Shown: positions 6,954 to 42,182 of the stretch, one piece after another
How the letters are laid out: each line of letters starts with the position of its first letter
How positions within the stretch are numbered: the stretch's first letter is position 1
NCBI GenBank assembly: GCA_017656335.1
Contig: JACDOA010000010.1
Coordinates: 1 to 42,269 of the forward strand
DNA from: Thermosipho sp. (in: thermotogales)
GTDB taxonomy: Bacteria; Thermotogota; Thermotogae; Thermotogales; Fervidobacteriaceae
Direction of reading: 5' to 3'
DNA length: 42,269 bases
The notes under the pieces: model-generated
What the model was told of the DNA's origin: nothing
The model's input: the letters and a program-made list of their open reading frames with translations, nothing else
The model's database searches: none
Program-made: the position numbers and the translations under genes

Positions 6954-6975
6954 ATGTACAAAATTGTACATTAAT

Positions 6976-7004
6976 GGTATCCTTCTTTTGGAAGGAGGGA
7001 TACC
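6976..7004 (+). promoter_or_regulatory. Hairpin sequestering the istA ribosome-binding site
   Basis: GGTATCC (6976-6982) pairs perfectly with GGATACC (6998-7004). The region between holds GAAGGAGG, the SD for the GTG start at 7009. Inner TTC/GAA pairing can extend the stem. Hiding the SD in a hairpin is a known way for insertion sequences to avoid expression from read-through transcripts. Confidence 0.55.
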
Positions 7005-7008
7005 AAAA

Positions 7009-7350
7009 GTGGAAAAAATCAAACAACATTTGCAAATGTTAAGAGAGATGGATTTGAAACCTAACTTTTCTGAACTAGCCAGAATATATGGAATTGATAG
7101 AAGGACAGTAAAGAAATATTGGAACGGTTATCAGGGAAAACCTAAAACTAGAAACAAACCCAGTAAACTGGATAAGTATTTTGAAAAAATAGCAACGTTA
7201 ATTTCAATTAAAGGATTCACAATTAGAGCGGCATATGAAAGGTTGAAAGATGAAGAAGGGGGTGTGATTGGGACATATTCAAATTTTAGAAAATATGTAA
7301 AAAGGAAGGTATTGAGACCAGGAAAAGGTTCTAAAGTTCATCAAAAATAA
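7009..7350 (+). pseudogene. istA: IS21 transposase IstA, N-terminal fragment
   Basis: The frame from GTG 7009 (SD GGAAGGAGGG) encodes about 113 aa. It opens with the IstA-type helix-turn-helix: MLREMDLKPNFSELARIYG, then IDRRTVKKYWNGYQGKPKTR. It continues to SIKGFTIRAAYERLKDEEGG, the region before the catalytic domain. A full IstA is about 400-500 aa with a DDE core; this one stops at 7350, so the catalytic part is missing. The frame also opens upstream from 6964, but the SD supports GTG 7009. Confidence 0.75.
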
Positions 7351-8407: not shown

Positions 8408-9398
8408 AATACCACTATTAATAAATAACGATTATCTTATAACCAAAAAATCATCTAAATCTTTTTGTTTGTATTTTAGTTTTGTTTTAATTAAAAAACC
8501 TATTGAAAAAGCCAATAATCCCATCTTAACTAAGTACCCCTAGCTGAGCTATGTGAGTAATATATTCCACCTTTTCCTTTAAGAAGAGTTTGATTTTTTC
8601 CACTTTTTACATTAAAGTACTTTACTTTATATACTTCAGCATCAGCTCTAACGATTCTTGACTATCTGATAGGTACTGTTAGATAAGCTTAAGTGATTCA
8701 TAGAATTTAGGAATCATTTTACACACTCTCTTTTTATCTGAGAAGTATCTTTTAAATTTTCGGGATGAATAATTGTTTATTATCAAAAATAAAATGGATC
8801 TTTTAAAATCATATTTTTTCTTGTTTTGTACCTTTTAAAAAACATGGTATTATATTCTTCAAATAAAAAATTACTATTTCTCATTACATACTTCAACTAA
8901 TATTTTATCATTTTTTGCCAGTCAATTCTCTTTAACTTTTCCTTTTGTAACTAAAACACCGTAATGTAATAGGATAATCTGTTGAATTTGAAGTTTTTTG
9001 AGATTGTTATGGTTTTTTTAACTTCTCTATGGTGTTTTACAAAGATGAAAACTCTGATGAGAAATTTGATCTTCTTAACAAGTAATTTAATCTCAATTTC
9101 CTCAAGCTCAAAGGAATCTTTTATACTTTCCAAATCCATCTCTGCAAACTGATTGCCAGCGTATTATGTTAAGAATGCATTTTCTTTGGATATGATCTTG
9201 CATTTTTTATCAAGCATTGCAAGGTGTTTTATCTGTCGGTGTAATTGTAGTGTTCATAGCTTATGAATATAAAAGCTTTATCGAGATTGGTGTGTTTTTT
9301 ACGAAGTATAACCCTTGTCCTGAGTAAAAAAGAGTTTGAAGCTTATCAATACAGAGGATGATCAAGTGTATTAAATTAACGGCAATATTTGCTAAAGA
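8408..9398. other. About 1 kb of degenerate sequence
   Basis: No intact gene is supported. The minus strand holds two coding-like remnants. One ends ...VKYFNVKSGKNQTLLKGKGG...SSARGT near 8540-8630. The other is a 62-codon frame at 8951-9139 starting MDLESIKDSFELEE, without a convincing SD. On the plus strand a hydrophobic stretch (GVLSVGVIVVFIAYEYKSFI, about 9216-9275) stops shortly afterwards. These look like fragments of dead genes or transposases, but I cannot name the parents. Confidence 0.5.
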
Positions 9399-10538
9399 AT
9401 GCTAAGAATAGTGGAAGAAAATTCGTATAATAAAAAATCAAGCAAAAAGAAAAATGATATAAGCTGTTTTTTAGCTTGGATTTCTGTTTTTTTATCTATT
9501 TATGTTAAAATTACTTCGAAATATGCTAATTTTGGGTGGGATAATATGTTATCATCTCTCATTGGTGCTTTATTTTTAACCGCTAAAGTGACTATTTTAT
9601 TTTTTGTAACCATATTTGAAGCTTTAGCTTCGCATGGTTTAAATTTAATTCTTTTTGTGTTCATGGTATTGTTTATAATGCTTTTGTTAGGCAGTATCAA
9701 AGAAATAAAACGTTTTTTAAGTAAGAAGAATTTGCCTGGTAAATCAAGTAAAATAGAAACAAAAGGAGTAACAGACACTAGGCATTCTAGGTGGTATATC
9801 AACCTTATAAACTTCTTAGGCCTTTTAATTGGAGCGATTACTACATACGGTTTAAATCATGAGGTTGGATTTGGAGCTGTTTTGGCTGCCGGGCTTGTTG
9901 GAATTTTTGGCGCATTGTTTTTCCCTGCTTATGGTGCAGCAATATACTGTGGTGCATTTATTGGAATGAGCTCAAGTGAGATATTTCATGGTTATGTACA
10001 TGTTATTGTGGCAGCCCTTATTGCTGCAATTGTATATCTAACAACTAAGTATGTATTTACTGGATTTGGTGGAAAACTTGGAACAATTGCTTTAATTGGT
10101 GTTGCAATCTCTGTAGTACTAACTGAAAAAGAATTTCTGAAAGTGCAGAGACCTGGTTGGGATATTGCACCGCTCATAATAATATTCTCCGTTTTGGGTG
10201 CAGTGGTTACGTACATTTTAAATGTTCGACTGCAACGCGATCCCGTTATGAGTTCTGCAGCTGTAGGAATAAGTGCTGGATTATTGCTTCCACAGATTTA
10301 TTCAGAATTTGGCGAACTTTTTGCAACAATAGTTATTTGTGCTTCGTTTGCAGGTATGTCGAGCAAAGAACGGATACCAAATGAATTTTACATGATTCTT
10401 GCAGGGATAATCTGTGCAATAACGTTTATCTATACATTCTCATATCTTGGAGGAGCAGGAGGAAAACTTGGAACGATAGCTTTTGGGTCTGTTATTGTTG
10501 TTTCATTATTACAAAGGGTTTGGAGAAGACAACTCTAA
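9399..10538 (+). CDS. Polytopic membrane protein with an internal direct duplication
   Basis: 379 aa; I do not recognise a family. The N-terminus (1-130) holds two or three membrane helices and a basic linker. The rest consists of two similar halves, about residues 135-241 and 258-370. Both contain a GLL/VLGA-I/VVTY helix, a FIGMSS or FAGMSS motif (residues 187-192 and 317-322) and the identical octapeptide GGKLGTIA (224-231 and 354-361), 130 residues apart. This indicates an ancient duplication of a three- to four-helix unit, as in many transporters. The ATG is preceded at once by an in-frame stop and has no clear SD, so the 5' end may have been altered by the decayed region upstream. Transport is a guess. 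Confidence 0.7.
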   Translation: MLRIVEENSYNKKSSKKKNDISCFLAWISVFLSIYVKITSKYANFGWDNMLSSLIGALFLTAKVTILFFVTIFEALASHGLNLILFVFMVLFIMLLLGSIKEIKRFLSKKNLPGKSSKIETKGVTDTRHSRWYINLINFLGLLIGAITTYGLNHEVGFGAVLAAGLVGIFGALFFPAYGAAIYCGAFIGMSSSEIFHGYVHVIVAALIAAIVYLTTKYVFTGFGGKLGTIALIGVAISVVLTEKEFLKVQRPGWDIAPLIIIFSVLGAVVTYILNVRLQRDPVMSSAAVGISAGLLLPQIYSEFGELFATIVICASFAGMSSKERIPNEFYMILAGIICAITFIYTFSYLGGAGGKLGTIAFGSVIVVSLLQRVWRRQL

Positions 10539-29448: not shown

Positions 29449-31242
29449 TTAAATTTCATATTCTTCAAGAAGTTGTTTTCCTTTTTCTTCTACAAATTGT
29501 TTTATATAGAGATTGTAATAATAGTCTCTCTTTTTCATCAGATTTTCGTGATTTCCTTCCTCTAAAATTTTTCCATCTTTTATCACCAGAATTCTATGTG
29601 CATTTCTTATAGTCGATAGTCTATGGGCAATTACAAAACTTGTTCTTCCATACAAAACTTTCATTATTGCATCTTGAATTAAATGCTCTGTGTATGCATC
29701 AACAGAAGATGTTGCTTCATCAAGAATGAAAATTTTTGGATCGGCAATTACAGCTCTTGCAAGAGAAATTAACTGTCTTTGACCAGTTGATAGTTTTGAA
29801 CCGCCTTCTCCTACATCTGTATTGTATCCATTTTCAAGATTCATTATAAAGTCATGTGCATTAACTAGTTTTGCTGCATTTATTATTTCATCCATAGTTG
29901 CATCAAGCCTTCCGTATCTTATATTTTCAGCAACTGTTCCACTAAACAAGTGAGGAGTTTGAAGTACATATCCAAGATTTGAGCGAAGTTTTTTTAATGG
30001 TATATTTCTATAATCAATACCATCAATATATATTACTCCTTTGACAGGTTCGTAAAATCTTCCAACAAGATTGACTATTGTAGATTTTCCAGAACCTGTT
30101 TCACCTACTAAGGCAATTACTTCTCCTTTTTTGACTTTTAGATTAAAGTTTTTAAGTACATAATCACCTTCTTTGTATTTAAAAAATACGTTTTTAAATT
30201 CGATTTCTCCTTGAATTTCAATATCAACGTTTTCTTTTGCTTCATCTTTAATGTCTGATTTTGTATCAAGTAGATCAAGCACTCTTTCAGCAGCAGCTTG
30301 AGCAGAAACTAAATCAGCGATTACTCTGGCTATTTCTCTAATTGGTTCAAAAAATTGTATTGAATAATTAATAAATGCAACAAGGGTACCAAAGGAAATA
30401 AGACCAGCGTAAACCCAATTTCCGCCAAAATAGATAATTGATGCTGTAGTAATACTTCCAATACTCATAACTATAGGTGTATAAGTAGAAGATAATACAG
30501 CAGCTTTTATCGAAGATCTTTTCATTTCCTCAGTTTGAGCTTTTAATTCTTCAATATGTTGCTCTTCAACTGAAAGTATTTTTGTAGTTTTAGCTCCCAT
30601 AATCCCTTCGTTAAATGTACCTGTTATTTCAGAATTTAATTTTCTAACTTTCCTATATTGCCTGAGAATTTTATTCTGAAAATATAAACTTATTAGAAAC
30701 AAAACTGGAATAGCAAGAATAATAAAAAGACCCAGTTTCCAGTTAAGAATTAATAAGTAAATAAAAATAAATAGCATAGTTGAAAAACCCCATATAATAT
30801 CAGTTAACCCCCAGGCAAGTACATTTGTTACTTTTCTTATATCTGACATCAATCTTGCCATTAAAAAACCCGTCTGAGTTGTGTCATAAAATGATAATGA
30901 TAATTCTTGCAATTTTTCAAATCCTGCCTTTCTTATATCATGTGCAAGATACGTTTCTATTTTAACTGCAAAGAAAATTAATAAAAAGACGTTTAAAGCC
31001 TGGATGCCAATTATAGTTAGAAAAATTATTATAAATTTGTGAAATCCTTGCAAGGATTTTGGTACAACGTAATTATCAATTGCATATTTAGTTAAATACG
31101 GAAAAGTTGCATCTATTGCACCAACTATAAGCATTACTGTTATTAAACCAAGCAAATGATATCTATATGGGTAGATAAATGATATAAACTTTTTCCAGAG
31201 TCTAAAATTTATTTTTGATTTATATTCTTTTTCTTGTGCCAT
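29449..31242 (-). CDS. ABC exporter half-transporter, catalytic-site subunit (BmrD/TM288-like)
   Basis: 597 aa: six membrane helices (about 25-320) followed by a nucleotide-binding domain. Walker A is GETGSGKST, the signature is LSTGQRQ (Thr for the usual Gly), Walker B is IFILDEATSSVD with the catalytic Glu kept, and the H-loop is IAHRLST. Its partner upstream lacks that Glu but has a perfect LSGGQ. So the pair forms one normal and one degenerate ATP site, as in BmrCD, LmrCD or TM287/288. The complex is expected to export drugs or lipids at the inner membrane. SD AGGTGAAAGGAA; it starts 20 nt after the partner's stop. Confidence 0.92.
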   Translation of the reverse strand: MAQEKEYKSKINFRLWKKFISFIYPYRYHLLGLITVMLIVGAIDATFPYLTKYAIDNYVVPKSLQGFHKFIIIFLTIIGIQALNVFLLIFFAVKIETYLAHDIRKAGFEKLQELSLSFYDTTQTGFLMARLMSDIRKVTNVLAWGLTDIIWGFSTMLFIFIYLLILNWKLGLFIILAIPVLFLISLYFQNKILRQYRKVRKLNSEITGTFNEGIMGAKTTKILSVEEQHIEELKAQTEEMKRSSIKAAVLSSTYTPIVMSIGSITTASIIYFGGNWVYAGLISFGTLVAFINYSIQFFEPIREIARVIADLVSAQAAAERVLDLLDTKSDIKDEAKENVDIEIQGEIEFKNVFFKYKEGDYVLKNFNLKVKKGEVIALVGETGSGKSTIVNLVGRFYEPVKGVIYIDGIDYRNIPLKKLRSNLGYVLQTPHLFSGTVAENIRYGRLDATMDEIINAAKLVNAHDFIMNLENGYNTDVGEGGSKLSTGQRQLISLARAVIADPKIFILDEATSSVDAYTEHLIQDAIMKVLYGRTSFVIAHRLSTIRNAHRILVIKDGKILEEGNHENLMKKRDYYYNLYIKQFVEEKGKQLLEEYEI

Positions 31243-31262: not shown

Positions 31263-33050
31263 CTATTCAGATTCTTTTTTGATAAGCGATTGTATTTTCC
31301 ATACTTTTTTGTACAGACCATCTTGATTTATTAATTCTTTATGAGTTCCAATATTGGTGACAACACCTTTTTCAAGAACTATTATCAAATCAGCATCTTT
31401 AACACTTGAAATCCTGTGAGAAATCAATATTGTTGTTCTTTCTTTACTTTTTTCTTTAAGTTCCTGCCTTATTTTCTCTTCTGTCTCAGTATCTACAGCA
31501 CTTAAAGAATCATCAAAAATTAAAATAGGAAATTCCTTTATTATAGTTCTTGCAATAGTTAATCTTTGTCTTTGACCACCTGATAAAGTAACTCCCTTTT
31601 CACCTATAAGTGTTTCATATGAATTTTCAAATTGTGTAATGTCGTCGTGAACTGCAGCAATTTTTGCGGATTCAATTACTTCCTCATCTTTTGCTTTGAT
31701 TTTAGTGATTTTGATATTTTCTTTTACTGTTTTTGAAAAAAGAAAAGCTTCCTGTGGAACAACGCCTATATTTTTTCTCAAAGTTTTTTTGGATATGTTT
31801 TTCAATTCAATTCCATCAATTGTAATTGAACCCGCATCGTAGTCGTATAATCTTAAAAGCAATGATATAATAGTACTTTTACCAGAACCGGTAGAGCCAA
31901 AAAATGCAACTGTTTGTCCGTGTTTTATTTTAAAAGATACACCTTTTAAAATTGGCTTATCTTTTGTATATCCAAACCAGACATCTTTAAAAACAATGTC
32001 ACCCTTTAATTTAATATCGCTTAGTCCTGATTCCACATCTTCTTTTTCTTCACTTAATATCTCATTTATCCTTTTTAGTGAAACTTTCATTTTACCAAGA
32101 TCAGAAAAAATTCTTCCCAATTGTCTTATAGGCCATAGTAGCATACCTATGTAACTTGAAAATGCAACTAAAGTACCAATAGTTATCTCCTGCCTTATTG
32201 CAAAATATGAACCAATAACGATAACTATTAATATTTGAGTTAAGCTAATAAGGTCAGATAATGACCAGAATTTTGCAAAAGTCAAACCTAAATTAAAATC
32301 AAGATTCCTATATTTTCGATTTCTATTATTAAATTTTTCTTTTTCATAATCTTCCCTTGCAAAAGCTTTTACCACTCGAACTCCTGTTATATTTTCCTGC
32401 AGTACTGTCGAAAGTGCTGCTTCTGCCTCATCTGCAAGTTTAAATTGTTTTTGAACCTTTTTAAAAAAATAGTATGTAAGTAGGAATGACACTGGAATTG
32501 TAATCATTGATATTAGAGCCATTTTCAAATTCATGCTAATCATGACGTATGTAATCATTCCTGTTAAAAATATTGTCCTTCCTATTTCAACAAACTGGTT
32601 AACAACAAAATTTCTCACAGTCTCAACATCAGATGTACACCTTTGAATAACATCACCAGATTGGTATTTAGAATAAAAGTAGTAGTCTGATTTTAATATT
32701 GTGGAGTAAAGTTCATCTTTTAGTCTTTTTGAAAGAGTTTCAGATGCTTCACTTGCAAACCTTCCTCTAAGATACATGAAAACACCGTTAAAAATGCTTA
32801 GAAGAATTATAATTAAAGCGGCAATAAATAGCTTTCCAGATACAGTATCTTGGAAATGAGATAAAGAGAAAATATAATTAATCCACTTTGATTCTATTGG
32901 CTTTTGACCAATAATAGAATCAACTGTTGTTTTGATAATAAGTGGTAAGATTACTGTAATTATTGAAGATACAATAGTTGATAAAATTGCAAAAAAGTAT
33001 ATTAATCTTTTACCTTTCATATATTTACCGATTAAATAGAAATTGTTCAT
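31263..33050 (-). CDS. ABC exporter half-transporter, degenerate-site subunit (BmrC/TM287-like)
   Basis: 595 aa: membrane domain (about 10-325) plus ATPase. Walker A is GSTGSGKST and the signature LSGGQRQRLTIAR is canonical. Walker B reads ILIFDDSLSAVD, with Asp where the catalytic Glu should be, which marks the degenerate member of a heterodimeric exporter. The start is ATG 33050 (SD AAAGGGGG); the open frame continues upstream into the terminator hairpin and should be ignored. It is the first structural gene behind a leader-peptide attenuator, so its expression is probably conditional. Confidence 0.92.
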   Translation of the reverse strand: MNNFYLIGKYMKGKRLIYFFAILSTIVSSIITVILPLIIKTTVDSIIGQKPIESKWINYIFSLSHFQDTVSGKLFIAALIIILLSIFNGVFMYLRGRFASEASETLSKRLKDELYSTILKSDYYFYSKYQSGDVIQRCTSDVETVRNFVVNQFVEIGRTIFLTGMITYVMISMNLKMALISMITIPVSFLLTYYFFKKVQKQFKLADEAEAALSTVLQENITGVRVVKAFAREDYEKEKFNNRNRKYRNLDFNLGLTFAKFWSLSDLISLTQILIVIVIGSYFAIRQEITIGTLVAFSSYIGMLLWPIRQLGRIFSDLGKMKVSLKRINEILSEEKEDVESGLSDIKLKGDIVFKDVWFGYTKDKPILKGVSFKIKHGQTVAFFGSTGSGKSTIISLLLRLYDYDAGSITIDGIELKNISKKTLRKNIGVVPQEAFLFSKTVKENIKITKIKAKDEEVIESAKIAAVHDDITQFENSYETLIGEKGVTLSGGQRQRLTIARTIIKEFPILIFDDSLSAVDTETEEKIRQELKEKSKERTTILISHRISSVKDADLIIVLEKGVVTNIGTHKELINQDGLYKKVWKIQSLIKKESE

Positions 33051-33067: not shown

Positions 33068-33103
33068 ATAAAAAAACTCCACGAGTGGACAACCCGTGGA
33101 GTT
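33068..33103 (-). terminator. Attenuator terminator ahead of the heterodimeric ABC operon
   Basis: Minus-strand stem: AACTCCACG (33103-33095) with CGTGGAGTT (33083-33075), 9 bp, 11-nt loop, then seven Ts. It sits between the leader peptide and the first ABC gene, 18 nt before its ATG. The loop contains GGTTGTCC (33094-33087), complementary to a segment in the leader. A terminator this strong before the first gene means transcription must be released by some signal. Confidence 0.88.
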
Positions 33104-33128
33104 CGTTATATCAAAAATAAATTAAGAA

Positions 33129-33212
33129 CTATTTGCGTAGCATTTTAACCCCGGAAAGGTTGCCCAATAAATAGATATTTAGTTTTCTTGATTTAGATAT
33201 TCTTATTCTCAT
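33129..33212 (-). CDS. Leader peptide of ABC operon 1 (27 aa)
   Basis: A 28-codon frame from ATG 33212 to TAG 33131-33129, too short for usual gene callers. SD AGGAGGG with 8-nt spacing is as good as any in the window. The peptide begins MRIRISKSRKLN and ends KMLRK; it is very basic. Residues 2-4 are Arg-Ile-Arg, the +X+ pattern that causes macrolide-dependent stalling in ErmD-type leader peptides. The nucleotides of Gly17-Asn18-Leu19 form GGGCAACC, which can pair either with GGTTGTCC between the SD and ATG or with the same octamer in the terminator loop. A regulatory peptide, translated in cis, is the best explanation. Confidence 0.75.
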   Translation of the reverse strand: MRIRISKSRKLNIYLLGNLSGVKMLRK

Positions 33213-33253
33213 TGGACAACCCTCCTTTTCAATCAGATTTTTAAGATGGAATT

Positions 33254-33282
33254 AGTGTATCATTATTTTAAAAATGTGTCAA
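33254..33282 (-). promoter_or_regulatory. Promoter of ABC operon 1
   Basis: Minus-strand TTGACA (33282-33277) and TACACT (33259-33254) with exactly 17 nt between. The predicted start is about 35 nt before the leader peptide ATG, so the whole attenuator is transcribed. Confidence 0.8.
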
Positions 33283-33402
33283 CGATAAATTTAGTTGTAA
33301 ATAAATTGTAAAATAATCTTAAAGTTAAAAAGTTGTTTTTGATATAGTTACGCCCCTTTTCAAAAACAGTGGGTATATTAAAAAAATATAGCCATTCCTT
33401 TT

Positions 33403-33801
33403 TCAACACATATTGCGAGAAGAGTATAGCTGTTTGCACAAGTCTTTACATCTTTTTATCCACCATTTTTTATATTGGTTGTGTGAAATAATTTTTAAAT
33501 GTGATATATTACTTATTTTTTCATTTTTGCACCAGTTTATACAGATTAAATAAAGTTCCCAATCAAGTTCTTCTGTTTCCCATACTACTTTGATTTTCTT
33601 AAATCCCATTTTCCAGAGGGCAAATGCTCTTGTGTGTCCATCTGTATAGAAAATAATATTATCAATTTGTTTAACAGGTATTGGTTCGATGTTGTTAACA
33701 CCATTATTTCTTATGTATTTTATTACATTTTTAAGTTTTTCTTTTGAAATATAAAGTTGACTTGGCATTACTTTGTCAATATCAAGGTAGAAGTAATTCA
33801 T
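33403..33801 (-). CDS. ParB/sulfiredoxin-like nuclease-fold protein
   Basis: 132 aa. The N-terminal 90 residues match the ParB-N / sulfiredoxin superfamily: a strand-helix start (YLDIDKVMPSQLYISKEKL), IEPIPVKQIDNIIFYTDGHTRAFALWKMG with the characteristic DGHTRA box, then IKVVWE. No partner ParA, no DNA-binding HTH and no centromere-like repeats are seen, so this is not a chromosome-segregation ParB. Stand-alone members are uncharacterised; some ParB-like proteins have nuclease, CTPase or kinase activity. It has GGGGGC as a modest SD and lies between the two attenuator-controlled ABC operons. Function unknown. Confidence 0.75.
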   Translation of the reverse strand: MNYFYLDIDKVMPSQLYISKEKLKNVIKYIRNNGVNNIEPIPVKQIDNIIFYTDGHTRAFALWKMGFKKIKVVWETEELDWELYLICINWCKNEKISNISHLKIISHNQYKKWWIKRCKDLCKQLYSSRNMC

Positions 33802-33920
33802 ATAAATGCCCCCATGTTTATAAATATTTTTTACTAGAATTTATTTGTTTTTCATTTTTAATCATATTATATAACAACTTTTTCTTTCTTCTAAAATCTG
33901 TTGGTTGATTGTTATTTTGA

Positions 33921-34856
33921 TTATCCTACAATTTCTTCAAGTTGTCTTGCAGCAGTTATACCTGAACGTATGTTATCCCATATTCCAATTGAAGTAAATA
34001 ATTGATATCTAATTAATGTAAATAAATTTAAAAGAGCGTAGAATGTACCAGCATTACCTAAAATTATTCCACGGTATATAACAAAGAGATAGAATGCTGC
34101 AGAAATAAAATCTCTAATGGAGAAACTCAAAATAGCATCAATAAAGTATAATCTTTTTTTGTATTTCCAAAAGGAATCTGTTCTTTTTTGAAAAAGGTTT
34201 ATTTCAAAATCGTATGCTTCAAATAGTTGTATTTCTTCTTTTCCTTTAAACATATCTGCAACGTATGATTTAATTTCTAAAAATTGATCTTTTACTACTT
34301 TTGCGTGCTTATAGTAGTAATTATTTGCTACCCACAAAGAAAGTAAAATTAAGATAGCAAATAATACCATGGATAATCCTGAAATATGATCAAGCGTATA
34401 AATAGTAATCATGTAAAATGCTATTTTAAATGCAAATACAAGCCCACCTGAGTTATCGTAATCAGCTATTATGTATAATAAATTTTCAGTTGTTCTTAAA
34501 GAAACTTCAGAGTAAAACGCTGGAGTTTTTCTGGAAAAATCAACAAAATCTTTATTCATAACTTTTTTATAGCAATATTCACCAAGATATTTTAAATATC
34601 GACCTTTGGTAAAAGATACAAATCCTCCACCAAGAGTATATAAAATATGACTTGATAAAACTGCTATTACTAATATTAAACTATTTAGAAAAAATTTATT
34701 ATCCATAGAGATAGCATAGTTTATTACATTTTTACTCAAAATATTGCTATATGAGATAATTAAACTTGAAAATATTCCGAAAATGTTCATTAAAAAAACC
34801 ATGTTGACTACCTTTTTAGGGACTTTTGAAAAAAGCCATTTTATCATTTTTGTCAT
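33921..34856 (-). CDS. ABC exporter membrane subunit without ATPase domain (second of pair)
   Basis: 311 aa with about six membrane helices in the pattern of a type-IV ABC exporter domain. The coupling-helix-like segment around FKGKEEIQLFEAYDFEINLF is visible. The protein ends at ARQLEEIVG, exactly where the linker to the ATPase starts in fused exporters, so the ATPase is naturally separate. Its ATG overlaps the stop of the ATPase gene by 4 nt (ATGA). With the other membrane subunit it should form the channel. Confidence 0.82.
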   Translation of the reverse strand: MTKMIKWLFSKVPKKVVNMVFLMNIFGIFSSLIISYSNILSKNVINYAISMDNKFFLNSLILVIAVLSSHILYTLGGGFVSFTKGRYLKYLGEYCYKKVMNKDFVDFSRKTPAFYSEVSLRTTENLLYIIADYDNSGGLVFAFKIAFYMITIYTLDHISGLSMVLFAILILLSLWVANNYYYKHAKVVKDQFLEIKSYVADMFKGKEEIQLFEAYDFEINLFQKRTDSFWKYKKRLYFIDAILSFSIRDFISAAFYLFVIYRGIILGNAGTFYALLNLFTLIRYQLFTSIGIWDNIRSGITAARQLEEIVG

Positions 34857-35596
34857 AAAACATCATCCTCTCTAAATTTTTCCGTTAATTCCTGTTCTGC
34901 TCTGAAAAATTGTTTTAAAAGACTTTCATTTGAATGTTCATGATATTTTCCTTTTTCAACAATTTTTCCATTTTCAAGTACTGCAAATTCATCGGTTAAT
35001 GAAAGAATGCTAAATCTATGAGATATTAAAATAAGTGTTTTATCTTTAACAAATTCTTTTATATTTTCAATAACCTCTTTTTCTACAAGTTTGTCCACAC
35101 CTTCAAGTGGTTCATCGAGAATAATAAGTTCTGGATTTCTTAATAACAGTCTTGCAAGTGCTATTCTTGTTCGTTCACCACCTGATATATAACTTCCATC
35201 ACTTCCAAGAATGGTATCAAGTGTTCTTGTCTTTATGAACTTTTTTAGGCCAGCTTTTTCAAGAGCTTCATGCATTTCTTTATCTGTTGCTACAGGATTT
35301 GCAATAAGGAGGTTGTCTCTTAAAGATCTATTAAATATATGTGCTCTTTGACTTAAAACCCCAAGAATCTTGTACCAATTCTTAAATTCTGATAGAGGCT
35401 TTTCATTTACCATTATCTTTCCAGAATGTGGAGTTATATACTTTAAAATAAGCCTTATCAAAGTGGTTTTCCCTTCACCACTTGATCCTACTATTGCTAG
35501 TTTTTCACTGCGATTTATCTCTAAATTAAAATTATTCAGAATTTTTCTTCCTTCATATTCAAAAGTTACATTTATAAATTCAAGTTTTTCAAACAT
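34853..35596 (-). CDS. Stand-alone ABC ATPase of the split exporter
   Basis: 247 aa, a complete nucleotide-binding domain: A-loop FEYEGRKIL, Walker A GSSGEGKTT, Q-loop VLSQRAHIFN, signature ISGGERTRIALAR, Walker B LIILDEPLEGVD with catalytic Glu, and H-loop LISHRFS. The sequence is exporter-type (close to CydCD/MsbA-like domains), although it is encoded alone as in importers. The gene lies between the two membrane subunits; one ATPase presumably acts as homodimer with two different membrane proteins. SD AAGGAGGAG. Confidence 0.9.
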   Translation of the reverse strand: MFEKLEFINVTFEYEGRKILNNFNLEINRSEKLAIVGSSGEGKTTLIRLILKYITPHSGKIMVNEKPLSEFKNWYKILGVLSQRAHIFNRSLRDNLLIANPVATDKEMHEALEKAGLKKFIKTRTLDTILGSDGSYISGGERTRIALARLLLRNPELIILDEPLEGVDKLVEKEVIENIKEFVKDKTLILISHRFSILSLTDEFAVLENGKIVEKGKYHEHSNESLLKQFFRAEQELTEKFREDDVL

Positions 35597-35597
35597 A

Positions 35598-36551
35598 TTA
35601 TTTCTCCTCCTTTAAATACTCATTATACGCAACTTTTGCTCTTGCAATTGCCCATGAAATATAATCAGTATCTTGAATATATACCTTTGAGTAGTCAAGC
35701 ACTCTTTCAGTATAAACAAGAAGCATTATAGCTTTTCCAGCAGAAAGATTTCCAGAAAAGACCTGAAATCCTAGTAGAAAAGTAATAATAGGTATGGTTA
35801 AAATTGATATTAATTCATATGTGAAACCAAATCGAATTTCAACTTTTCCATATAAATCGTATGATTTTTTCAACCTGGTTAGTGCTTCTGATATCCAAGT
35901 AAAGGTGATGGGAAGTGTTTCATAACTTTTGATATCTTCGTATCCAGAGTATAAATCAGAAAATGTTTCAGAAACATCATATTCTGCTTCGTTCATTTTG
36001 TTTGCAGCTTGTTCTTCAACTTTCATTTTTTTATTACTTGATATCCACATGAAGATAAATCCCAGTATTGCAATAACTCCTGCCTCCCATTCATTGAGAA
36101 TTATCATACTAATGGAGAGAAACATCATAATTGGTACAATTAAAACGTAAAGTGTAAAATTTCTATAAAAAAATTCAAAAATGTGTTGAAAACTAAATAT
36201 TTTATCCATTTCTTTTTCTGGAATGAAATTGTTATCTTTTCTTTTTAATGCATTTGATATTGCTCTTTTAAACAAATACTTTGGTGCCTCTACCGTTGAA
36301 AAGATTCTTCTTGTCGTTCCACTTATTTGGTTTAAGATAACTCTCGCTAAATAGATAAGAGTGAAAATATAGAAAAAGTTTAAAAGTATAGGTTTACCAA
36401 AGTTATCCACAATTTTTCCTAGAAAAATAGGAAGAATAAAAGATAAAAACATAGATGTAATATAGGAAATATCGATAAAAAGTTTTTTGATAAAAAGAGA
36501 AGTTGGAAGAATCCTGTGAAATAAAATAAAATATTTGTAAAGGTCCTTCAT
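35598..36551 (-). CDS. ABC exporter membrane subunit without ATPase domain (first of pair)
   Basis: 317 aa, about six membrane helices of the ABC exporter type (LPIFLGKIVDNFGKPILLNFF near the first loop; YSGYEDIKSYETLPITF near the coupling helix; GKAIMLLVYTERVLDY near helix 6). It stops at NEYLKEEK, before any ATPase. First gene of the three-gene operon membrane-ATPase-membrane. ATG 36551 has TGGAGGGA 6 nt upstream and lies 34 nt past an attenuator terminator. Confidence 0.82.
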   Translation of the reverse strand: MKDLYKYFILFHRILPTSLFIKKLFIDISYITSMFLSFILPIFLGKIVDNFGKPILLNFFYIFTLIYLARVILNQISGTTRRIFSTVEAPKYLFKRAISNALKRKDNNFIPEKEMDKIFSFQHIFEFFYRNFTLYVLIVPIMMFLSISMIILNEWEAGVIAILGFIFMWISSNKKMKVEEQAANKMNEAEYDVSETFSDLYSGYEDIKSYETLPITFTWISEALTRLKKSYDLYGKVEIRFGFTYELISILTIPIITFLLGFQVFSGNLSAGKAIMLLVYTERVLDYSKVYIQDTDYISWAIARAKVAYNEYLKEEK

Positions 36552-36584
36552 CTAAAATCCCTCCATTTCTAGAAAAATTTGCAA

Positions 36585-36611
36585 CAAAAAAGCCCCGGCA
36601 ACCCGGGGCTT
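36585..36611 (-). terminator. Attenuator terminator ahead of the split ABC operon
   Basis: Minus-strand stem AAGCCCCGG (36611-36603) / CCGGGGCTT (36598-36590), 9 bp, GTTG loop, then a T-run to 36585. It is very GC-rich for this genome. GGTTGCCG spans the loop and both inner stem ends, and is complementary to CGGCAACC in the leader, so pairing with the leader would break the hairpin. Confidence 0.9.
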
Positions 36612-36730
36612 ATTACTTTCAACCAGAAACTGAAAAACACCTAAGCATTGTGCTTGTAAAAATAAATTATATAAAACAAACAATGGAAAAAATATTCCAT
36701 TATTTATTGGTTGCCGTAGTATGTTCAGTG

Positions 36731-36766
36731 TTAAATTGTCTCAGAAAATATCCTTATCTTTCTCAT
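36731..36766 (-). CDS. Leader peptide of ABC operon 2 (11 aa, MRKIRIFSETI)
   Basis: ATG 36766 to TAA 36733-36731, with the SD GGGAGGT spaced 7 nt. The peptide MRKIRIFSETI resembles the start of the other leader (MRIRIS): both have Arg2 and an Ile-Arg-Ile core. Lys3-Ile4-Arg5 is a +X+ motif. CGGCAACC, complementary to the terminator, lies 14 nt after the stop codon (36716-36709). Short ORFs with good SDs occur by chance, but the shared position, sequence and terminator pairing argue for a regulatory peptide. Confidence 0.7.
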   Translation of the reverse strand: MRKIRIFSETI

Positions 36767-36804
36767 CTTTTTTACCTCCCGAATATGAAATAAACATCGC
36801 GAAA

Positions 36805-36833
36805 ATAATAACATACAAAAAGATTATTGTCAA
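36805..36833 (-). promoter_or_regulatory. Promoter of ABC operon 2
   Basis: Minus-strand TTGACA (36833-36828), 17-nt spacer, TATTAT (36810-36805). Same -35 hexamer and spacing as the promoter of ABC operon 1. It places the start about 30-35 nt before the leader peptide. Confidence 0.82.
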
Positions 36834-39844: not shown

Positions 39845-41191
39845 ATGAGAAAAACTATGAAATTACTGACGATTCTTTTTTTTACCAGTGTCATTTTTGC
39901 TTCCTCGATAATATTTGCGGTTAAAATCTCACCAGATAGACTCCAAAGAGATTTTGAATTTATTATTACCCTTTTAAAAGAAGCGTACATCGATCCATAT
40001 GGGTTAGTTGAAAGCCAAGAATTTTCAAAGATCGTTGATAGCGTAAGAAAAAAACTCGATCAACCCATGGATAGCTTTGAGTTTTTTAAGGCAGTCTCTC
40101 CGATTTTTCATTACCTGAATGATTACCATTGTAGTATTGAATTTCCCATTTCAAATGATTTTCAAGTCTTTCCAATAATTCTTTATGTTGTAGATAATAA
40201 CATATACGTTGTCTTTTCACTGGTCGACGATATACCGATAAAGTCAAAAGTTTTGGCAATTGATGAAATTCCATCAGGTCAAGTAATAGAAGAGTTTGAA
40301 CAGTATACCAATACAAGAGAAAACACTTCCCTGAAAGAATATGAAATTTCCCGGTATATCAATCTGATACCGACGTTTTGGAATAAAAAAAGTGTGGAAA
40401 TAGAGTTTGAACACAACGGTTTCATAAAGAGAGAAAGGATAAACGCTGTAACGATAAGGGAATATAGAGAAAAAATTCAAGAGTCTAATAAATTGAAATT
40501 ACCGTACGAATTTGAAAGGAAAGGAAGCATAGGGATATTAAGAATAGGGAGTTTTAATTTCAAAGGAACTTTATTTACCGATTTTAAGGAGTTTCTAAAT
40601 AAGGTTTTTGAAGAAAATAAGGACATAACAAATTTGATTATAGATGTAAGAAGAAATTTCGGTGGCGATCCACAATGTGTAAGTGAGGTATTGGGACATT
40701 TTGTGAACAGGAAACTTTCTGTGGTGAGCAAAGTTAAAGTGAAAAACTCTAAGTACAATGAGAAAGTTTTAGCAGGGGTAGGGGTTCGTTATGACAAAAA
40801 CACCGATGGAAAGATAATCGATGCAATTTACCCATGGTTTATAACCCCAAGAGAACCTGTATTTAAAGGAAAGGTATGGGTACTTGTCGATAACGGCATA
40901 GCTTCTGCTGCAACGACTTTTGTTAGCATTGTTCAAAAATATGGAATAGGAAAGATAATAGGAGAAAAACCAATTTATTCGCCGAATCATACAGGTAGTG
41001 GTGTAGAACAATATCTGCCAAATATAAAGACTTATGTTTATATTCCTGGTTCGTACATATTCAACTCAGAATCAGACGAAATAATTCCGGATTACGAACT
41101 TATAATGACAACAGAAGAGAAAATTGAGTGGTTGACGGGAAGTTCCGATCCTGTTCTTGAAAAAGTGATAGAAATTATTGAGAACAACTAA
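39845..41191 (+). CDS. S41-family peptidase (exported)
   Basis: 448 aa. A signal peptide (residues about 1-27, hydrophobic core LLTILFFTSVIFASSIIFA) is followed by a helical N-domain and a tail-specific protease core. Signposts are GSIGILRIGSFNF, NLIIDVRRNFGGD (strand before the nucleophile), WVLVDNGIASAATTF with the likely catalytic Ser in ASA, and GEKPIYSPNHTGSG. Canonical C-terminal processing peptidases also have a Lys about 25 residues after the Ser; here the segment VQKYGIGKIIGEK offers candidates. A PDZ domain is not evident. Codon choice is less AT-biased than in neighbours. The SD is AAAGGAGGGA. Confidence 0.88.
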   Translation: MRKTMKLLTILFFTSVIFASSIIFAVKISPDRLQRDFEFIITLLKEAYIDPYGLVESQEFSKIVDSVRKKLDQPMDSFEFFKAVSPIFHYLNDYHCSIEFPISNDFQVFPIILYVVDNNIYVVFSLVDDIPIKSKVLAIDEIPSGQVIEEFEQYTNTRENTSLKEYEISRYINLIPTFWNKKSVEIEFEHNGFIKRERINAVTIREYREKIQESNKLKLPYEFERKGSIGILRIGSFNFKGTLFTDFKEFLNKVFEENKDITNLIIDVRRNFGGDPQCVSEVLGHFVNRKLSVVSKVKVKNSKYNEKVLAGVGVRYDKNTDGKIIDAIYPWFITPREPVFKGKVWVLVDNGIASAATTFVSIVQKYGIGKIIGEKPIYSPNHTGSGVEQYLPNIKTYVYIPGSYIFNSESDEIIPDYELIMTTEEKIEWLTGSSDPVLEKVIEIIENN

Positions 41192-41420: not shown

Positions 41421-41499
41421 GTGTGGATTTACCCCGAAAAAGTGGACACCTGGAGTTAAATATTTAGGAGTATAATAGAAGAAAAGTCAGGTGATTCAC

Positions 41500-41778
41500 A
41501 TGGGGAAGCAAGGCAAAAGATTTACCAAAGAATTTAAAGAACAAATTGTTTCATTGTATAACATGGGTAAAACCGTTTCACAGTTAAGCAGCGAATATGG
41601 CGTTACCAGGGTTACTATCTACAGATGGATTAAAGAGTATAGTCCTACTCAAGATGGTGAAATAAGCAAAAAAGAATTTGAAAGGATGAAAAAAGAATTA
41701 AATGAATTAAGAATGGAGAATGAAATATTAAAAAAAGCTACAGCCATATTCGCCAAAAAACAACAAAAGAACTTGTAG
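41500..41778 (+). CDS. IS3-family OrfA (HTH protein)
   Basis: 92 aa. Helix-turn-helix FTKEFKEQIVSLYNMGKTVS, QLSSEYGVTRVTIYRWIKEY, then a leucine-zipper-like coiled coil (KKEFERMKKELNELRMENEI, LKKATAIFAKK). This is the classical OrfA of IS3 elements, which binds the ends and makes the OrfAB fusion by -1 frameshifting. The slippery run AAAAAAC lies at 41755-41761 in the right position. ATG 41500 with SD AGGTGA; a GTG 41491 is inside the SD. Confidence 0.88.
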   Translation: MGKQGKRFTKEFKEQIVSLYNMGKTVSQLSSEYGVTRVTIYRWIKEYSPTQDGEISKKEFERMKKELNELRMENEILKKATAIFAKKQQKNL

Positions 41779-41899
41779 CATTTGTAGATAGATTCAAAAA
41801 TAAATACACAGTAAAAAGAATATGTAGAGTTCTAAAGTTTCCCAGGAGTACGTATTACAAAGCTAAGAAAAGAAAGAAAAGCAAATATACTGCTCCCCT
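41758..41899 (+). pseudogene. IS3-family OrfB, N-terminal fragment
   Basis: In the -1 frame after orfA: TTKELVAFVDRFKNKYTVKR, ICRVLKFPRSTYYKAKKRKK, SKYT. The 'R.Y.V.RIC..L..S.STYY' pattern is the standard start of OrfB (about 280 aa). After about 41899 the same frame runs into an unrelated OrfA-like sequence, so the catalytic rve domain is absent. Confidence 0.8.
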
Positions 41900-41921
41900 G
41901 AAAAATTGGACAGAAGAAAAA

Positions 41922-42182
41922 ATGGCAATAATTCTGGAAGGTCTTCGTCGAGAAAAAAGTGTTTCTCAAATCTGTAGAGAACATGGGATTTCTCAAGCTC
42001 AATATTACAAATGGAGAGACAAGTTTCTTGAAGGTGCAAAAGAAGGATTGGAAAATGGAAAGAAATCCAGAGTTCAACAACTTGAAGAAAAAATTGAAGA
42101 ACTTGAAAAGGTAATTGGTAAACAAACTATAGTCATTGAGACATTAAAAAAAACAGTAATACATCCAGGAAACGGGAAATAG
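41922..42182 (+). CDS. IS3-type OrfA of the second element
   Basis: 86 aa from ATG 41922. HTH: MAIILEGLRREKSVSQICRE, HGISQAQYYKWRDKFLEGAK, then coiled coil VQQLEEKIEELEKVIGKQTI. Family members usually start about ten residues earlier with '..W(T/S)EEK', and that sequence (KNWTEEK) is present upstream in frame but without a start codon, in line with truncation at the junction. A weak SD only. A run of eight As at 42147-42154 could be the frameshift site to orfB. Confidence 0.8.
   Translation: MAIILEGLRREKSVSQICREHGISQAQYYKWRDKFLEGAKEGLENGKKSRVQQLEEKIEELEKVIGKQTIVIETLKKTVIHPGNGK

Follow-up and report, generated by a model that had tools for sequence, protein, structure and literature searches.

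Leader elements that tie transcription of a resistance gene to the state of the ribosome are known from Firmicutes. In Bacillus subtilis, the antiterminator of the vmlR leader is released when a ribosome is held at the beginning of the upstream open reading frame (uORF) MIN. Initiation is what counts, and among natural variants of this uORF, MDN and MDK are functional and MRK less so (PMC9226507). In Listeria, lincomycin-stalled ribosomes on a three-codon open reading frame (ORF) that overlaps an anti-antiterminator control transcription attenuation in Rli53, ahead of lmo0919 (reviewed in PMC8079631). The bmrBCD locus of B. subtilis is induced by chloramphenicol, erythromycin and lincomycin (PMC4191407), and an attenuator of the same three-stem type has been predicted for PatAB (PMC4319486). 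Here we analysed a stretch of 42,269 nucleotides (contig JACDOA010000010.1; "the window" below means this whole stretch), on the minus strand of which two short ORFs, leader 1 and leader 2, precede two exporter operons. An original prediction made from the window alone had proposed leader-peptide attenuation before both exporters, and the leader ORFs, terminators and antiterminator pairings described below support that proposal. It had further read both leader peptides as macrolide sensors. In our own reading, to which we assign a probability of about 0.75, leader 1 belongs with the ribosome-mediated transcription attenuators exemplified by vmlR, Rli53 and bmrBCD; it would sense stalls at initiation or at early codons and be largely blind to the peptide encoded.

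Leader 1 and its relatives

Both operons follow a common order, in which a promoter-like site is followed by a strong Shine-Dalgarno sequence, a short ORF, an intrinsic terminator and the exporter genes. The elements of leader 1 are the following.

33254..33282, minus strand: promoter-like site of operon 1, TTGACA-17-TACACT with TG before the -10 (a consensus match only)
33225..33221, minus strand: Shine-Dalgarno sequence of leader 1, GGAGG, overlapping region 1
33221..33214, minus strand: region 1, GGTTGTCC (33214..33225 with the Shine-Dalgarno sequence), reaching the start codon; predicted 5' strand of the anti-antiterminator
33129..33212, minus strand: leader 1 ORF, 27 codons, translated as MRIRISKSRKLNIYLLGNLSGVKMLRK and a stop
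33158..33165, minus strand: region 2, GGGCAACC, predicted alternative partner of region 1 or region 3
33074..33104, minus strand: intrinsic terminator of leader 1, with region 3, GGTTGTCC, at 33094..33087 in the loop and top of the stem

Among 101 genomes queried with the protein of the first exporter gene, there were nine with clear orthologs (49-100% identity, own genome counted), eight of which have upstream sequence to compare; the ninth (L010) ends at a contig end. All eight carry a leader ORF with a Shine-Dalgarno sequence at a fixed place and a terminator before the exporter gene. The encoded peptides (MRIRISKS..., MRRRVAIS..., MDKQVNKK..., MINSLRIS..., MRISSLSF..., MKMTKQAL..., MVGTGLIK... 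and MVGIRLVK...) have neither start nor length in common and range from 16 to 39 codons. This bears directly on the proposal that both leaders are macrolide or ketolide sensors, in which arrest at an early basic-X-basic triplet, with codon 3 or 4 in the P site, would induce both exporters. The expectation had been that R-I-R would be kept while the rest of the peptide drifts. In leader 1 the early triplet (within residues 2-6) occurs in only two of the eight, both in the genus of the window, and the Arg is replaced in the other six, which keep the RNA structure without it; two of the relatives (G008 and G004) have a basic-X-basic at residues 8-11. For leader 1, sensing of macrolides through R-X-R thus finds no support in the very comparison that had been named as its test.

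What is shared is the RNA. In 8/8 orthologs an 8-base word stands in three places, at the Shine-Dalgarno sequence and start (region 1), as its complement (region 2, at +48 to +61 from the leader start) and in the loop of the terminator (region 3). Across the eight, 62 of 64 core cells form standard pairs between regions 1 and 2, and the same count holds between regions 2 and 3. Regions 2 and 3 change together in G008 and G004, from GGACAA/TTGTCC to GGGCAA/TTGCCC; region 1 changes with them in G008, and a G-U pair is retained there in G004. The frame of region 2 relative to the leader ORF is 2, 0, 1, 0, 0 and 0, and in two members region 2 falls outside the ORF altogether; it is therefore kept as RNA rather than as coding sequence.

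We also searched 103 genomes of the class with a loose two-part pattern for regions 1 and 2, which matched 11 places compared with five for a reversed control. The third copy, in a terminator, was present at 6/6 of the pattern places upstream of this exporter and at 0/5 of the others; G003 and G004 carry the element and fall outside the two-part pattern. A wider contig scan for near relatives returned none, the top segments of the best 80 loci having 30-37% identity and coming mostly from clostridial or unrelated genomes. Nor did an Rfam search find any sequence relation of leader 1 to vmlR.

Two further explanations can be weighed on these comparisons. Were the leaders untranslated and the hairpins ordinary terminators or elements of mRNA stability, the lack of conservation among the leader 1 peptides would be expected. 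Yet the Shine-Dalgarno sequence, start codon and ORF keep their place in all eight members of the leader 1 family and in all seven of the leader 2 family, and of the terminator-like sites, 68 in all, that were counted over 437 kb of this genome, only two have a perfect 8-nucleotide complement to their loop upstream, one of the two being leader 2 (leader 1 is left out of this count by one G-U pair). We regard this explanation as very unlikely. An attenuator of amino-acid supply, sensing shortage of Arg or Ile, would draw on the Arg and Ile codons clustered early in both window leaders. Against it, no codon run is common to the eight leader 1 peptides, the targets are exporters rather than biosynthesis genes, and the codons concerned are not rare in the own genome, where AGA makes up 71% of Arg codons and ATA 32% of Ile codons. 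We rejected an amino-acid attenuator of the trp/his type because the codons are not conserved, and sensing of amino-acid supply in general appears highly improbable.

Elsewhere in the own genome (1.79 Mb in 33 contigs), a terminator AAGGTGGCGGGAGGGCCACCTT with a loop-complementary CCCTCCCGC upstream lies at L181:12640-12700 (contig C2, ~172.6 kb). It directly precedes an ORF that resembles, by eye, an isoleucyl-tRNA synthetase, and may be an attenuator or an alternative terminator.

Ribosome position and the folding of leader 1

To follow the competing pairings, a ribosome footprint was masked codon by codon on transcripts ending at region 3 and equilibrium pairing probabilities were computed. 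In six of the eight members without a ribosome, regions 1 and 2 paired with a probability of 0.98-1.00 and regions 2 and 3 with at most 0.02. With a ribosome at codon 4, the former pairing fell to 0 in all members and the latter rose to 0.83-1.00 in seven of the eight. For the leader of the window itself (G000), pairing of regions 2 and 3 stood at 0.99 with the ribosome on codons 1-5 and at 0.04 on codon 6, and in most members it was gone by codon 6-8. A temperature of 65 °C or a smaller footprint gave a similar pattern in most members, and none of 100 shuffles of the window's leader 1 reached the observed switch.

Several results weigh against reading leader 1 as such an attenuator. The anti-antiterminator is imperfect in G003 and G004, where, with no ribosome, regions 1 and 2 pair at 0.07 and 0.00 and regions 2 and 3 at 0.36 and 0.14, respectively. 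In G009 the antiterminator is weak, reaching 0.22 with the ribosome at codon 4 and staying low (0.08) with a longer 5' end. When 25 nucleotides are added at the 5' end, switching in G003 is confined to codons 1-2, with a partial response at codons 6-7, and regions 2 and 3 pair at 0.01 with the ribosome at codon 4 (37 °C). For the other members, the numbers of shuffles per 100 that reached the switch were 3 (G003), 0 (G015), 3 (G009), 2 (G011), 2 (G013), 5 (G008) and 15 (G004), and several members have a second, smaller switching window near codons 12-16. Finally, most of region 3 is placed in the loop of the terminator, and antitermination would therefore need to win a kinetic race that is invisible to equilibrium folding.

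Taken as a whole, leader 1 combines an ORF and a terminator with an anti-antiterminator that a ribosome can block in silico (weakly in G003 and G004) and a covarying antiterminator exclusive with the terminator. We propose that free passage of ribosomes, or their absence, would leave region 2 paired back with the Shine-Dalgarno region or hidden under the ribosome, and transcription would end at the terminator. A ribosome held on the start codon or on the first ~5 codons would cover the Shine-Dalgarno region and free region 2, which could then pair with the loop sequence of the terminator ahead of hairpin nucleation, so that the exporter is transcribed. The trigger would be the position of the ribosome and not the identity of the peptide, and the expected inducers are therefore agents that hold ribosomes at initiation or in very early elongation. 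General translation stalling, which had been offered as an alternative to macrolide sensing, is thus favoured for leader 1 by the RNA geometry, and macrolide-specific sensing is the weaker reading there. Codon 3 does fall inside the trigger window, a point in favour of the macrolide proposal; arrest at R-X-R would accordingly be predicted to trip leader 1, as would a ribosome on any of codons 1-5. The most that R-X-R might contribute in the window's genus is added sensitivity to some macrolides, and the likeness of leader 1 to macrolide-sensing leaders is probably not its driver.

Compared with vmlR, leader 1 has the same parts, namely a short ORF, an anti-antiterminator over the leader, an antiterminator and an intrinsic terminator. 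It differs in preceding an exporter rather than an ABC-F ribosome protector, in an ORF of 16-39 codons across the family as against three, and in its Shine-Dalgarno sequence, which is part of the anti-antiterminator, whereas that of the vmlR leader is described as single-stranded before the hairpin (PMC9226507). Rli53 is alike in its attenuation logic (PMC8079631). Rli59, ahead of lmo1652, resembles leader 1 in its target, a BmrCD-like exporter (homology from PMC7828314). Both are from Listeria and differ from leader 1 in a tiny ORF and, as far as searched, in having no related sequence. In bmrBCD the leader BmrB has 54 residues and the terminator lies inside its coding region, whereas the terminator of leader 1 comes after the ORF (PMC4191407). 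The toiL element of Escherichia coli is likewise a multipurpose uORF that senses several classes of ribosome inhibitor by ribosome position; unlike leader 1, it acts through translation repression and Rho and uses the whole uORF rather than an early window (PMC12121999). Leader 1 appears distinct in building its anti-antiterminator from its own Shine-Dalgarno and start region, and, if it is from Thermotogota, in belonging to a lineage far from Firmicutes. We found no case of leader attenuation in Thermotogota in the open-access literature, including the parts consulted of PMC2965389, PMC4833913 and PMC8632094, which is weak evidence of absence.

If our reading is correct, attenuation of multidrug exporters by ribosomes, known from Firmicutes, would extend to a probable, Thermosipho-like member of the Thermotogota with an independently built RNA, and leader 1 would be a clear natural example of an attenuator with an unconstrained peptide, for which ribosome position alone is decisive. 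Ribosome inhibitors would then be a selective force in the habitats of this presumably thermophilic host.

Leader 2 and the early basic motif

Upstream of operon 2 the same order of elements is found, as follows.

36805..36833, minus strand: promoter-like site of operon 2, TTGACA-17-TATTAT (a consensus match only)
36731..36766, minus strand: leader 2 ORF, 11 codons, MRKIRIFSETI and a stop, with Shine-Dalgarno sequence GGGAGG at 36780..36775
36709..36716, minus strand: region 2 of leader 2, CGGCAACC, at +51 relative to the start codon
36590..36611, minus strand: intrinsic terminator of leader 2, with region 3, GGTTGCCG, at 36603..36596 in the loop and stem top

The mechanical ORF call extends leader 2 further upstream; the Shine-Dalgarno sequence GGGAGG fits the ATG at 36766. 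Orthologs of the first gene of operon 2 were present in nine of 103 genomes, and leader 2 in seven of them, six besides the window. A covariance model (R1) built from six sequences recovered these and one new leader, G076 (E 2.9e-6); five further end-to-end matches (E 6e-4 to 0.02) showed no leader 2 on inspection, and weaker or partial matches were left aside.

In this family the peptide is conserved. The sequences, of 9-11 codons, are MRKIRIFSETI, MRKIRTFSETI, MRKNKNFFRTI, MRKSKFVFGTI (twice) and a GTG-initiated RKIKTYSKTI, with MRRREILSI in another family, so that all seven start with M-R-(K/R)-x-(K/R) or M-R-R-R and end with (T/S)-I-stop, encoded by ACA/TCA-ATT-TAA. The spacing from start to region 2 is +49 to +51 in 7/7. 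Regions 2 and 3 pair in 56 of 56 core cells, and at two columns both partners have changed, in G010 and/or G076. Masked folding gave a different picture from that of leader 1: in six of seven members regions 2 and 3 paired at 0.95-0.99 both in the absence of a ribosome and with one at codon 4, and in G006 the value was 0 in either case. Neither the ribosome-masked folding of the seven members nor a comparison of competing stems against shuffles revealed an anti-antiterminator. One candidate for it, a long-range stem at the leader 2 stop codon seen in single folds, was rejected because it did not outperform shuffles (z -0.95 to +0.84).

The conserved peptide suggests, from sequence, a stall that depends on the peptide, and peptide-specific arrest in leader 2 is possible. 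One form of it would make leader 2 alone an arrest peptide, whose C-terminal Thr/Ser-Ile-stop stalls the ribosome at the stop codon on a small molecule, beside the antiterminator segment. Phenicol arrest favours Ala, Ser or Thr at the penultimate position, and the invariant ACA/TCA-ATT-TAA and the nearly fixed spacing to region 2 would fit. On the other hand, masking a ribosome at the stop leaves the predicted pairing of regions 2 and 3 unchanged in most members, no conserved competing stem was found among the seven, the stop of G076 lies 6 nucleotides further upstream than in the other six, and the conservation could be at the nucleotide level: Lys3 is encoded by AAG in 6/6 rows that have Lys there, AAG being 16% of Lys codons in the own genome. 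We hold stop-codon arrest as a tentative possibility. The conserved ends of leader 2 reflect either a ribosome stall beyond what simple masking captures or nucleotide-level conservation, and a conserved peptide without a visible switch makes a concrete problem for cell-free work. More speculatively, the two leaders might form a two-channel sensor of ribosome trouble in Thermotogota-like bacteria, in which leader 1 would respond to any ribosome stopped at initiation or within the first five codons, whatever the peptide, and leader 2 would be a sequence-specific arrest peptide (M-R-K/R-x-K/R...T/S-I-stop) with a constitutively available antiterminator, acting by a route unlike anti-antiterminator logic, and each exporter would then be matched to its own natural inhibitors of the ribosome in hot habitats; we consider this doubtful.

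Leader 2 is also where the macrolide proposal fares best. The peptides and positions on which it was built are correct: the early Arg/Lys-X-Arg is present in both window leaders, along with the terminators, and the ORF translations confirm the shared Arg2 and Ile-Arg-Ile. Arrest by ketolides at +X+ motifs is documented (PMC8298421), and the leader 2 triplet is kept in 7/7 rows (two of them identical peptides). In four of the seven, however, it is Lys-X-Lys, at which arrest is weaker than at Arg-X-Arg, and the arrest of ErmDL by erythromycin depends little on the motif, according to PMC8298421. In leader 2 the basic residues are conserved, and the folding revealed no ribosome-controlled switch. 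ErmDL and other +X+ macrolide leaders share the basic-X-basic with the window leaders; their output is an rRNA methylase, whereas here it would be transcription termination before exporters, with the triplet unconserved in leader 1 (PMC8298421).

Early basic residues are, moreover, common in the own genome. Among 284 non-overlapping ORFs with a Shine-Dalgarno-preceded start in 437 kb of this genome (the starts being guessed), 97 have K/R at residue 2, 28 (9.9%) have a basic-X-basic starting at residues 2-4, and six (2.1%) have the stricter K/R-X-R starting at residues 2-3. Its occurrence in both leaders is uncommon; the motif was chosen post hoc, and it is within the range of ordinary early codons. 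We judge it unlikely that both leaders are macrolide or ketolide sensors, and the case calls for caution against inferring drug specificity from an early R-X-R alone.

The architecture around leader 2 varies among the relatives. G007 and G012 (L036, L037) have operon 2 orthologs without leader 2 and without the terminator, and in both a strong Shine-Dalgarno sequence followed by a four-codon ORF, GTG ATT ATC AAT TAA, precedes the operon. In G014 (L042, L039) the first gene of operon 2 is disrupted by stops and a frame change, and the leader 2 ORF and terminator are retained. In five of six genomes (window ~36800, L033-L035, L038, L042) the -10 of operon 2 is followed closely by a TTTC(A/G)CG-like stretch, with TTTTTACG in G006, which could be initial transcribed sequence or an operator.

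The exporter operons and their surroundings

The genes downstream of the two leaders encode transporters of the ATP-binding cassette (ABC) type, the half-transporters of operon 1 each combining a transmembrane with a nucleotide-binding domain.

31263..33050, minus strand: ABC exporter half-transporter 1, Walker B FDDS, with Asp in place of the usual catalytic Glu
29449..31242, minus strand: ABC exporter half-transporter 2, Walker B LDEA
35598..36551, minus strand: first gene of operon 2, ABC-exporter-like membrane subunit (PF00664, 28.7 bits; cut-off 28)
34853..35596, minus strand: second gene of operon 2, ABC ATPase subunit (PF00005)
33921..34856, minus strand: third gene of operon 2, probable second membrane subunit (weak similarity to MsbA, E 1.8e-4; unmatched in Pfam)

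Heterodimeric ABC exporters such as TM287/288 and BmrCD have one degenerate site, marked by a missing Walker B glutamate. Operon 1 consists of two adjacent half-transporters, only one of which lacks this glutamate (FDDS versus LDEA), and by its sequence the pair qualifies as a putative heterodimeric multidrug exporter of that type; its PDB matches include, among many, TM_0288 of Thermotoga maritima (E 8.8e-96 and 1.6e-113). In operon 2 the ATPase gene is flanked by genes for two membrane subunits, of which the second is weakly recognised. S41-peptidase-like ORFs (window 39845-41191; L183:12852-14195 and 9074-10390) occur close to operon 2 in the window and immediately upstream of it in G003, a hint of a possible role of this operon in handling peptides.

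Rfam gave no match in the window at gathering scores, with three sub-threshold, chance-like matches in the region. Between the operons, a 132-residue ORF (window 33403-33801, minus strand) has weak matches to a SerK-like family (E 4.4e-5, NCBIfam) and to zf-RING_14 (E 0.0058, Pfam). ORFs at 6964-7350 and 41491-42182 of the window resemble, judged by eye, fragments of insertion-sequence transposases.

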